DNA of 32,382 bases from a virus: the IMG/VR virus record IMGVR_UViG_3300033979_000086, positions 1 to 32,382 of that record; one strand, written 5' to 3'. Position numbers and translations under genes: made by a program. A model generated the notes under the pieces. That model was given only the letters and a program-made list of their open reading frames with translations. It did no database searches and was not told where the DNA came from. This document shows, one piece after another, positions 13,967 through 20,902 of the stretch (its first letter is position 1; every line of letters starts with the position of its first letter).

Positions 13967-16201
13967 ATGGCAACAATTTCACTATTCAAGGCCGCAAAAG
14001 GAGCGGCAACACGGAACACAACTCCCGACGATCACCTGGACTTTACGGAGTACATCACCAATATCCGTGATGGGTATTGGTATAACGAGGTGACCGCATA
14101 CCGTGCGTCCAAGACCGACGAAACCAAACGCAGGCTTTCTGCCGTTACACCCAGCGGCAAGTTTAAGAAGCAGGGCAGGGATGGCCTTGACACCCATTCG
14201 GGGATCCTCTGCATTGACATTGATGCCAAGGACAACGAAGGCGTGAACATGAAGGCTCTGCTGAATGACGAGTTTCTGCTTGCCATGCACAAGTCCACAG
14301 GGGGGGAAGGGTATGCCGCCTATTACCGCATTGAACCCGATCGTCACTTGGAGGCCTTCTTCGCACTGGAGAAACGATTGGCCGATAAGTACCACATCAT
14401 TATTGACCCTGCATGCAAGGATGTGTCCCGCCTGCGGTTCGTCAGTTTTGATCCCGAAGCCTACCACACCGAACGCAAGGTGGCCGTATTCAAAGCCTAC
14501 CTACCCAAAGCCAAGGCAACACCTGCACCAAAATTCTATCCCCACGGCGAGCATGATGTGGAGCATATCGTCCAGCAGATTGAAGCCAAACGAATTGACC
14601 TTACCAACTCCTATGCGGACTGGGTGAAGATCGGCTTTGCCATTGCCGCAAAGTACCAGGACATGGGTGCGGACCTATTCCATCGGGTGTCAGCCATATC
14701 CCCGAAGTACGATCCGCAAGCCTGCGATCGGAAGTACAAAGCCCTCTGCCAAACCAAGCAGAACTCCGTGTCCTTTGCATCCTTCATGTGGCTGGCTAAG
14801 AATGCGGGCGTTGAAATCCAAACCCCGCAAACCCGCCACATCGTGTCAACCGCCAAGACCCACCGCATGCGGGTGGGAACCAATGGTGGCCCCAAGGACA
14901 TCGCCTCCGCTACCGAAACGGCGGTCCGCATCCTTCGGGAAATTGATCAGATTGATGTCGAGCAGTTGGATGAGATCGTCGCACACACCATGCAAATGGA
15001 TAGCGATGAACTGAAAACCGCATCAACCGAGGATTCGCCCATCAAGCAGATCAAAGCCTACCTCCGATCGTACGACCTGCGCCGCAACGCCGTGACCAGG
15101 AACATCGAACTGAACGGCCAACCTATTAACGATACGGACCTCAACAACATCTATGTCGCATGCTTGGAGAACTTTGGCAAGAAGGAGGTCAACATGCAAC
15201 TGGTCAACGCCATCGTGGATTCGGATTTTGTCATCACCTACAATCCGTTCTTGGAGTTCTTCGCCAAAAACGCTCACCGCCAACCAAAGGGGTGCATTGA
15301 AGCCCTGACCAACACGATCACCAGCACGACCCAAGAACACGCATTCGTGCAGATGTGTATCTACAAGTGGCTCTGCTCCGTTGTTGCAAGCATGCAGGGC
15401 GATTACTCGCTGGCCATCTTGGTGCTATGCGGCGATCAAGGAATCGGCAAGACCAACTTCTTCCGCAACCTGCTCCCTGCCGAACTGCGCTCCTATTACG
15501 GGGAATCCAAACTGGATGCAGGCAAGGACGACGAGATCCTCATGTGCAAAAAGATAATTCTCTGCGACGACGAGTTCGGCGGCAAATCCAAGCAGGAGGC
15601 CAAGAAACTAAAGGAACTATCCTCCAAGCAGACCTTCAGCATCCGCAAGCCTTACGGACGGGTCCACGAAGATTTGAACCGTTATGCGGTTCTTTGCGGG
15701 ACTTCCAACGACGAAGAAGTCATCAACGACCCGACGGGTAACCGACGGATCCTGCCCGTGGTGGCCGCAAGCATTGACTGGGATGCCTACGATGCCATTG
15801 ACAAGACCGACCTATTCATTGAGTGCTACCATGCCATCCAAACCCACGGAAGCGATGCCTGGCAACTATCAAGAGCCGAGATCGCAATCCTCAACGATCG
15901 GACCCAACTGAATGTCCAGCCCGCCGTGGAGAAAGAACTCCTGCTCAAATTGTTTACCATCCCCGATCGGAGCGACGACCCTGAAGGCAAGTGGCTGACC
16001 AACTCCGAGATCAAGGATGTCATTGAAACCTGCACCCGCCAGCATGTGTCCGCACACAAACTTGGAGCCATCCTAAAGTCCCTTGGGTGTCAAAAAGTAT
16101 GCCGAAGGGAGCGGAATTTCCTCGGATGCTATTTTGTAGTCAGAAATTACGAAAGAAGTGACTACGCCCAAACGCCTACTAATCAAGGCATTCCGTTTTA
16201 A
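13967..16201 (+). CDS. Primase-helicase, VirE/BT4734-like
   Basis: This 744-residue multidomain replication protein makes primers and unwinds DNA. The N-terminal part (about 60-180) resembles the BT4734/VirE_N primase-like domain, with the acidic motif GILCIDIDAKDN. A PriCT-2-like helical domain follows (about 205-275: YADWVKIGFAIAAKYQ ... YDPQACDRKYKAL). The C-terminal half is a VirE/D5-type helicase, with Walker A GDQGIGKTNFF near 487, Walker B ILCDDEFGG near 530, and GTSNDEEVINDPTGNRR near 577-593, the sensor and arginine-finger region. The ATG at 13967 follows a terminator and CTTTGCC. The end of the gene contains two copies of the GTGACTAC repeat found in the origin candidate. Confidence 0.85.
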   Translation: MATISLFKAAKGAATRNTTPDDHLDFTEYITNIRDGYWYNEVTAYRASKTDETKRRLSAVTPSGKFKKQGRDGLDTHSGILCIDIDAKDNEGVNMKALLNDEFLLAMHKSTGGEGYAAYYRIEPDRHLEAFFALEKRLADKYHIIIDPACKDVSRLRFVSFDPEAYHTERKVAVFKAYLPKAKATPAPKFYPHGEHDVEHIVQQIEAKRIDLTNSYADWVKIGFAIAAKYQDMGADLFHRVSAISPKYDPQACDRKYKALCQTKQNSVSFASFMWLAKNAGVEIQTPQTRHIVSTAKTHRMRVGTNGGPKDIASATETAVRILREIDQIDVEQLDEIVAHTMQMDSDELKTASTEDSPIKQIKAYLRSYDLRRNAVTRNIELNGQPINDTDLNNIYVACLENFGKKEVNMQLVNAIVDSDFVITYNPFLEFFAKNAHRQPKGCIEALTNTITSTTQEHAFVQMCIYKWLCSVVASMQGDYSLAILVLCGDQGIGKTNFFRNLLPAELRSYYGESKLDAGKDDEILMCKKIILCDDEFGGKSKQEAKKLKELSSKQTFSIRKPYGRVHEDLNRYAVLCGTSNDEEVINDPTGNRRILPVVAASIDWDAYDAIDKTDLFIECYHAIQTHGSDAWQLSRAEIAILNDRTQLNVQPAVEKELLLKLFTIPDRSDDPEGKWLTNSEIKDVIETCTRQHVSAHKLGAILKSLGCQKVCRRERNFLGCYFVVRNYERSDYAQTPTNQGIPF

Positions 16202-16404
16202 GTAGTCAGTGTAGTCAGTTTTGACCCCTATTTTACATTGGCAATATATACGAGCGTGTGCATGTGTGCATGTGTGTTGTATATCTACTCATAAGAAAAA
16301 AAGTAACTACAAGTGACTACACTGACTACAACCGCCTCCACGCTATCAGGAAGGCCGTTTTTTGTAGTCACTTCTCAAAAACCAAAGTGACTACAAGTGA
16401 CTAC
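16136..16404. repeat. Iteron-like repeat cluster, replication origin candidate
   Basis: At least ten short repeats of one family occur in 270 bases. GTAGTCA is at 16136. AAGTGACTAC occurs at 16156, 16311, 16385 and 16395, with AAGTAACTAC at 16301. ACTGACTAC is at 16321. In the other direction, GTAGTCAGT occurs twice in tandem (16202-16219) and GTAGTCACTT is at 16364. Copies lie in both orientations around an AT-rich and alternating purine-pyrimidine stretch. The 195-base gap 16202-16396 holds no gene. It lies between the primase-helicase and the SF2 helicase, a common place for an origin. An operator array is the main alternative. Confidence 0.55.
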
Positions 16405-17830
16405 GCTCCGACCCTACCAAAACCAAGCCATTGACCAAATGCGGACAAGTATCGCAGAGGGCAAGAGGCACATCATCCTGTGCGCTCCAACGGGAAGCGG
16501 CAAGACCGTCATGTTCACCTTCATGGTGGCATCGGCCCTCCAGCGGGGGAAACGGTGCATCATCTTCACCGATCGGGTAGAACTGCTGAAACAATCCAAC
16601 GGAGCCTTGGACCAGTTCGGGATCCTGCCAACCCTCATTGAAGCGGGCAAGCCCCGACTGGATGTTTCGGGGAACTGCTTTATAGCCATGGCGCAGACCT
16701 ACGCCCGACGCAAGAACAAGGCCGACTATGCCGACCTCATGGCGGGCATGGACCTGGTGATCATCGACGAGGCGCACAAGCAAACCTTCAACCCTCTACT
16801 TGCAAGCATCCCCGCCAAGGCCGTAGTCATCGGCGCTACCGCAACCCCGCTCCGTCGTGGGAACCAGGAGTGCCTATCCAAGTTCTACGAGGTTTTGCAT
16901 GTACCAGTTCAGGTGCAGGAATTGATTGACCAAGGGTTCCTTTCCAACCCCGTGACCTATGGCGCCAACCAAGACCTTTCCGGAATCCGCATGAAGGGGA
17001 ATGATTACGACACCGAGCAGATGGCAACCGTCTATTCCAAGCGGAGGGTATTTGATGGCGTGGTCCAAAACTACGGGAGACATTGCAGGGGCAAGAAAGC
17101 CATCGTGTTTGCCAGCAACATCGCATCGAGCAAGGAGGTCTGCGCCGCTTTGCAGATTGCAGGTCACAACGCCCGACATGTGGACGGGACCATGGGCAAG
17201 CAGGAACGGGCCGATGTGCTTGCTTGGTTCAAGCATGCACCCGACGCTATCCTTTGCAACTGCGACTTGATGACCACCGGCTTTGACGAGCCAACCATCG
17301 AGGTCGTAATCCTATACCGGGCGACCGCAAGCCTGCCGCTATTCATGCAGATGGTGGGCCGTGGTTCCAGGGTGACACCAACCAAGAAGGAGTTCACCAT
17401 CCTTGACTTCGGGAACAACGTGCAGACCCATGGCTTTTGGGAGAACCGGCAGCAATGGTCCCTCAAAAAGAAACGCAAGAAGAAATCCGATGGCGTTGGC
17501 GGGGCGAAGAACTGCAAGGGATGCGAGGCGATTATTCCCGTGGGGGCTATGAAGTGCAAGCATTGCGGCTACGAGTACCAGCGCAAGGCGCAAGAGCAGG
17601 GCGAGATGGTGGACCTTCACCTGATGACCAAAGCGCAGGGCATGCAGTTGGCCACGACCAGCAGCATGTACCAAAAGGCACAACTGGCCAAGGCCAAAGT
17701 AATTTCGCCGTTCTGGGTGTTGCACAACCAATGCAAGAGCAAAGCCGAAGCCTTGGAGTTTATCCGCTATATGGGCTGGAAGCCAGGCTGGGCCTTCCAC
17801 AACAAAGACCGTTTCCCAATCCTAAAATAA
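16397..17830 (+). CDS. SF2 DEAH-box helicase
   Basis: This 477-residue protein starts at GTG 16397, the first possible start after an in-frame TGA at 16388. The start lies inside the last iteron. An ATG at 16439 would remove the LRPYQNQAID motif that opens such helicases. Motifs in order are APTGSGKT (about 30-37), IIDEAH (about 121-126), GATATP (about 141-146), the C-terminal ATASLP region, and QMVGRGSR (about 317-324). A zinc ribbon CKGC ... CKHC follows at about 373-391, then a basic helical tail. It unwinds or remodels DNA, probably at the origin or in recombination, and is likely the phage's second helicase beside the primase. Confidence 0.85.
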   Translation: MTTLRPYQNQAIDQMRTSIAEGKRHIILCAPTGSGKTVMFTFMVASALQRGKRCIIFTDRVELLKQSNGALDQFGILPTLIEAGKPRLDVSGNCFIAMAQTYARRKNKADYADLMAGMDLVIIDEAHKQTFNPLLASIPAKAVVIGATATPLRRGNQECLSKFYEVLHVPVQVQELIDQGFLSNPVTYGANQDLSGIRMKGNDYDTEQMATVYSKRRVFDGVVQNYGRHCRGKKAIVFASNIASSKEVCAALQIAGHNARHVDGTMGKQERADVLAWFKHAPDAILCNCDLMTTGFDEPTIEVVILYRATASLPLFMQMVGRGSRVTPTKKEFTILDFGNNVQTHGFWENRQQWSLKKKRKKKSDGVGGAKNCKGCEAIIPVGAMKCKHCGYEYQRKAQEQGEMVDLHLMTKAQGMQLATTSSMYQKAQLAKAKVISPFWVLHNQCKSKAEALEFIRYMGWKPGWAFHNKDRFPILK

Positions 17831-19291: not shown

Positions 19292-19642
19292 ATGACCCCA
19301 GCCCTCATCCACCACCTCGTTGACACCACCGCCGCGATATTCGGCATCACCCCCGACCAAGTGCGGTCCCCGTCACGGGAACGGCCCTGCGTCATCGCTC
19401 GGAACATCGTGGCCGACATTGCCTATAACGAGTACCTGTTCACCTTCATGGCTATCGGCAAGGAACTCAACCGCCACTACTCCACGATTATCATCAACTT
19501 GGAATCCTTCCACAACGACTGCAAGGCCAAACCCCAACTCCGATACCTACGGAGGCAAGTTTTCAACAACGCCCAAGAGTATTTGCAGACGGCAGAAGGG
19601 GCGTATATCACTGACACTCTGCTACTTCCTCCCACCGAATAG
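19292..19642 (+). CDS. DnaA domain IV-like DNA-binding protein
   Basis: This 116-residue protein has an N-terminal helix with VDTTAAIFGITPDQVRSPSRERPCVIARNI, matching the DnaA domain IV start (F-x-I-x-x-x-x-L-x-S-x-S-R-x-x-x-I-x-x-A-R). It continues with FMAIGKELNRHYSTIIINLE, matching the D-H-S-T signature region that reads DnaA boxes. The AAA+ domain is missing, so it can bind DNA but not act as a full initiator. It could bind the repeats at 16136-16404 or regulate transcription. It is followed by a strong terminator. Confidence 0.7.
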   Translation: MTPALIHHLVDTTAAIFGITPDQVRSPSRERPCVIARNIVADIAYNEYLFTFMAIGKELNRHYSTIIINLESFHNDCKAKPQLRYLRRQVFNNAQEYLQTAEGAYITDTLLLPPTE

Positions 19643-20742: not shown

Positions 20743-20902
20743 GGCCCAAGTCCAAGCCCGCATGGATTCGCTGATGATGGTCATTACCACTCTCTGCGAC
20801 TGCATCGGAGCGGTGGAGGAATCCAACTCGCCCAACGCTTTTGCCGTCAAGATGAAAATCGTGGACAAGATTGACGAACTCATTGACAAAATTGAGTACT
20901 GA
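20714..20902 (+). CDS. Small helical protein before terminase
   Basis: This 62-residue protein overlaps the previous gene by 29 bases and shares its TGATG stop/start with the small terminase. It is almost entirely helical (MDSLMMVITTLCDCIGAVEE, then IVDKIDELIDKIEY). It may oligomerise as a coiled coil. Unknown role. Confidence 0.45.
   Translation: MPSTKAPNDEAQVQARMDSLMMVITTLCDCIGAVEESNSPNAFAVKMKIVDKIDELIDKIEY

Follow-up and report, generated by a model that had tools for sequence, protein, structure and literature searches.

The repeat array at positions 16136–16404 of the window analysed here, a 32,382-nucleotide stretch of viral DNA that makes up the IMG/VR record IMGVR_UViG_3300033979_000086, is with high likelihood a replication origin of a tailed phage, where the product of the adjoining vapE gene (13967–16201, plus strand) would bind the repeated units through its C-terminal winged helix and be loaded as a helicase in both directions. 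Judged by the sequences, this is very probably the site where phage replication starts. The array has a two-armed repeat architecture, which is conserved in relatives together with switching of the unit, and the unit type travels with the winged helix of VapE. According to the mechanism proposed, the winged helix would bind the TGACTAC units, VapE would assemble on both mirror-image arms, probably as one hexamer on each, melt the weak AT-rich centre between them and load itself as a helicase bidirectionally, after which its N-terminal primase domain, or the host, would prime DNA synthesis. Unit binding, melting and bidirectional firing are modelled on the Rep protein of Staphylococcus aureus pathogenicity islands (SaPI) and on Cch2 of the staphylococcal cassette chromosome mec (SCCmec), while the loading of two hexamers is suggested by the mirror symmetry of the arms and by the published suggestion that two SaPI Rep hexamers occupy their origin. 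The original prediction that an origin lies here and is bound by an initiator of the phage is well supported by how the array is built and conserved, but the DnaA-like protein named there as a candidate binder is not supported.

Within 270 bases the array contains nine exact copies of TGACTAC and one TAACTAC, so that the “ten or more copies” claimed initially are reached only if this one-mismatch unit is counted. Two copies lie inside vapE (16136–16142 on the minus strand and 16159–16165 on the plus strand) and are followed by the left inner tandem pair, both on the minus strand (16202–16208 and 16211–16217, 9 bp spacing). The degenerate unit (16304–16310), like the right inner tandem pair next to it (16314–16320 and 16323–16329, again with 9 bp spacing), is on the plus strand. 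Further to the right there are a minus-strand copy at 16364–16370 and two plus-strand copies, 16388–16394 and 16398–16404, spaced by 10 bp, the last of which overlaps the GTG start codon of the next gene at 16397. The array thus starts in the last codons of vapE, fills the intergenic gap and reaches the start of the downstream helicase gene. These positions confirm that iteron-like repeats in both orientations lie between the primase and helicase genes, that they run into the end of the first and the start codon of the second, and that the head-to-tail pairs have periods of 9 and 10 bases.

Such clustering is not expected by chance. The whole window has 14 copies of TGACTAC where 1.75 would be expected, a number that no shuffled sequence out of 100 attained. 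The best 276-bp cluster of this unit in 200 first-order Markov sequences contained 2 copies versus 9 in the array, and the biggest cluster of any 7-mer found elsewhere in the window has 4, while random sequences give 3–4. The arms are nearly mirror-symmetric: four inverted site pairs have one common centre within 1 bp, which was reached by 21 of 5000 block-preserving random layouts in a test devised after the pattern had been noticed. Between the arms lies an AT-rich centre (16220–16303, 36% GC), the proposed melting site, with a GC content among the lowest 2% of all 84-bp stretches of the window. The 50-bp stretch starting at 16279 is the 13th least stable of 32,332 in the window; the least stable one is found at about 13816, just upstream of vapE and outside the array. 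The centre also includes an alternating purine-pyrimidine run (16254–16277, 24 bp, GT-rich) that is longer than any other in the window and possibly prone to the Z-DNA conformation. Runs of this kind, 24–38 bp long and flanked by ATATATA, are present in most relatives examined, with L053 (relatives are denoted here by L numbers) having none.

Comparison with relatives, suggested as a check in the original prediction, revealed repeats conserved in place down to about 65% VapE identity. Relatives with 65–100% identity keep most site offsets and orientations, and the unit itself is clade-specific (TGACTAC, TGACTAT, TAACTA or TAACCAC/T), its change affecting most sites at once. The switch extends to the copies within the coding end of vapE; in the first of them L056 and L057 differ by two synonymous changes (GTA GTC to GTG GTT) that leave the protein unaltered. 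More distant relatives (L068, L071, L160, L222, L223 and several Bacteroidota prophages) have other units, but repeat arms around an AT-rich centre are retained. Another of the elements compared, the prophage L248, comes from Chitinophaga polysaccharea, which can be cultured. In L013 the vapE frame is broken in its C-terminal part, probably by a sequencing error, and the array is intact.

Most iteron copies have an inverted partner, forming 19-bp arms (16202–16220/16311–16329) and smaller stems, and one could assume that the units are conserved for pairing in RNA or DNA hairpins rather than for recognition by a protein. This is extremely unlikely, since copies on the same strand and separate stems shift together to one new unit, which pairing does not demand, and the unit type goes with the VapE winged helix. 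Base pairing as the sole cause of conservation was rejected on account of this joint change. A search of Rfam gave no match for the array region, that is, no known structured RNA.

The natural variants indicate, indirectly, that the C-terminal winged helix of VapE (residues 648–729, coding part 15908–16153 on the plus strand) is the probable reader of the iterons, and not the DnaA-like protein. Maximum-likelihood trees were built for 16 representatives, with the winged-helix segment ending before the iteron-bearing codons. On the winged-helix tree the distribution of unit types needs 3 changes, the minimum possible, against 7 on the tree of the VapE body and 5 and 6 on the trees of two parts of the downstream helicase; on the tree of the DnaA-like protein the unit label is at chance level. 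The VapE proteins of L056 and L057 are 98% identical, and 10 of their 17 differences fall into residues 701–739, among them the wing substitutions V709H and A710N. Of the 11 unit matches counted in their arrays (ten places, as two of the matches overlap), 7 differ by the same T-to-C change, compared with a background of 0.086 (P about 1e-5). L061 has the same KKHNR wing as the member of this pair with ACCA units, and its own units are ACCA too. Exchange of larger segments is seen in L042, which is 98–99% identical to L021 over residues 1–300 but has the winged helix and the unit of another clade, and in L054, whose VapE body is 94–97% identical to that of L033, yet the winged helix and array are window-like. 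L054 and L065 belong to one 40.2-kb contig, which may be a chimeric assembly, since its two vapE/DnaA-like modules differ and are separated by about 33 kb. In the sampled clades with identities of at least 65%, a recognition helix starting with NPN or NQN accompanies TGACTAT, and SAH or SSH accompanies units ending in TAC, TAA or CCAC. The 13967 protein, which was among the candidate binders proposed at the outset, is on these grounds a likely reader of the units through its C-terminal winged helix. There is about an even chance that VapE phages carry exchangeable cassettes of winged helix plus origin, forming replication-specificity groups among near-identical phages. The domain and the dispersed iterons would then switch jointly, by recombination or concerted point change, with the body of the replication protein unchanged.

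Several observations weigh against an origin read by VapE. The plot of GC skew, another check suggested for the putative origin, has no turn at the array. An array 3′ of vapE was not seen in Xanthomonas phage FoX2, E. coli ECOO78, Bacteroides BF503P2, Croceibacter P2559Y, Leuconostoc LN25, Cellulophaga phi46:1 and Flavobacterium mumin, and the layout is thus common but not universal. Foldseek searches with two models of the winged helix returned zero significant matches. Finally, the winged helix adjoins the array, and linkage accounts for part of its association with the unit: in pairwise distances this association is 0.86 for the winged helix and 0.82 for the N-terminus of the downstream helicase. 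Because this adjoining segment scores high too, pairwise distances are not decisive, and we relied on trees and natural pairs.

The same adjacency and the same correlation across the array would be expected if the origin is real but the winged helix merely hitch-hikes with neighbouring DNA and some other protein binds the units. We consider this improbable. The helicase N-terminus, being equally near the array on its other side, tracks the unit less well on trees, and in L020, L021, L042, L048 and L050 near-identical helicase N-termini are combined with two unit types. In L056 and L057 both flanking genes are mostly near-identical, while protein changes are concentrated in the C-terminal 40 residues of VapE and the dispersed units are altered in place.

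The DnaA domain IV-like protein encoded at 19292–19642 (plus strand, Pfam assignment) has the DNA-binding domain of DnaA and is common in close relatives, and for this reason it might be supposed to recognise the units at the origin with VapE only being recruited. Such a division of roles is very unlikely, as the sequence of this protein is unrelated to the unit type and identical copies occur in phages with different units. The protein of the window is 99% identical to those of L033 and L039, which have a different unit, and 44–51% identical to those of L014–L017 with the same unit. As a determinant of specificity it was rejected, the copies of L021 and L042 being separated by zero branch length while their units differ. 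It was found neither in the L056 contig nor in the 39-kb L057 contig, both bearing the array, nor in the complete array-bearing genomes FPSV-S1, PH15, CHPC1282, phiJB, lotta8-1 and Javan337. DnaA boxes (TTATNCACA) are absent from the array and their number in the window is below chance, so that the array does not qualify as an origin of DnaA/oriC type. The gene is exchanged freely among these phages, its product being near-identical across origin types and 40–50% identical within one type, and may help replication in some other way.

Since one iteron covers the start codon of the helicase gene and the array occupies the whole intergenic gap, the repeats could also be operators through which a regulator, perhaps VapE itself, controls the downstream helicase operon, with replication starting elsewhere. 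This appears unlikely: an operator does not usually comprise as many as ten sites, arranged as mirrored arms on either side of a weak AT-rich centre and with two of them in the preceding gene; promoter prediction in the array region gave nothing above the level of chance; and a like layout is a functional origin in phage-inducible chromosomal islands (PICIs) (PMC6092414). Autoregulation may nevertheless exist alongside the function of the array as an origin.

The proposed initiator combines a BT4734_N primase domain, PriCT_2, a VapE helicase and the winged helix. Its VapE-like Pfam match has an E-value of 1.5e-28, BT4734_N and PriCT_2 are Pfam domains as well, and the PHROG annotation is DNA primase. 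A profile of VapE compared with the Protein Data Bank (PDB) retrieved 7pds, “Similar to D. nodosus vapE” (E 1.2e-10), and the same comparison with a profile of the winged helix alone yielded no credible relative. The winged helix itself was modelled confidently by AlphaFold2 (pLDDT 90.7 for residues 648–729), and the top of the Foldseek list for the trimmed domain consists mostly of DNA-binding winged helices led by DNA-bound Orc1, with non-significant E-values. The gene whose start codon overlaps the last iteron (16397–17830, plus strand) encodes an SF2 helicase of ResIII type by Pfam, which does not determine the unit type. A terminase small-subunit gene of the gp3 family is located at 20902 of this 32-kb viral contig.

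Among known systems, the origin of lambda type, recognised by protein O, is likewise part of the replication module of a phage and has iterons beside an AT-rich element, but these are direct repeats on one side only and the initiator is not known to be a helicase. The alpha protein of P4 unites primase, helicase and a C-terminal winged-helix domain binding the origin (ori/crr), as proposed here for VapE, with a different iteron and two separate sites. Its winged helix (1ka8) took rank 10 in the Foldseek search with the longer model, at a non-significant E of 0.59, and the trimmed domain did not retrieve it among its 50 best matches. Origins of Streptococcus thermophilus phages have been studied experimentally. 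The two-arm layout behind vapE recurs in several phages of Streptococcus, Lactobacillus, Paenibacillus and Flavobacterium.

By arrangement, the window can also be likened to SV40 large T and papilloma E1, self-loading hexameric helicases acting on short repeats in mirror arrangement (compared in PMC7581432), whose DNA-binding domain is N-terminal. Closer is the helicase Cch2 of SCCmec with its putative origin: in isolated form, its C-terminal domain binds AAGTG repeats situated directly behind the gene for Cch2 (PMC7581432), just as the reader inferred for the window would do. Cch2 differs in having only three iterons, a separate polymerase-primase and a helicase of D5/Primase_Cterm type, whereas here the match is to VapE.

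The closest likeness is to the origins of PICIs, which lie 3′ of rep and have an AT-rich region between two iteron sets (PMC6092414); in SaPI, Rep recognises the downstream origin through its C-terminal domain (PMC7581432). The window shares with them a position directly 3′ of the gene encoding the initiator helicase, an initiator of the Rep/VapE helicase family and two iteron arms around an AT-rich centre. The satellites Javan337 (L230) and Javan739 (L241) even have its TGACTAC unit and a similar spacing of the right arm. This unit is common to both satellites, Lactobacillus phage phiJB (L242) and the window, which are unrelated elements with different-looking VapE C-termini; many units of other families are also alike (TAACCAC, TTACCAC, TACCACC). 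In distinction from PICIs, the window belongs to a tailed phage with terminase genes and does not have the gene content of a satellite devoid of phage structural genes, a single protein unites its primase and helicase (a fusion found also in SaPI5 Rep), and its nearly mirror-symmetric arms extend into both flanking genes. Since layout, gene context and inferred reader fit, the window may be classed with the iteron origins of satellite type, as a representative from a phage. This would supply a pair of origin and initiator for a large group of uncultured phages with relatives in Bacteroidota genomes. Because the natural switches between TGACTAC, TGACTAT and TAACCAC involve few amino-acid changes, the code by which VapE/Rep initiators read DNA becomes directly testable, and such specificity groups could bear on competition between phages and on satellites having this type of origin. 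As phages and satellites share the layout, it would not be unique to PICIs, which goes against the statement of 2018 that, of the bacterial replicons known, only these islands have a two-arm iteron origin.
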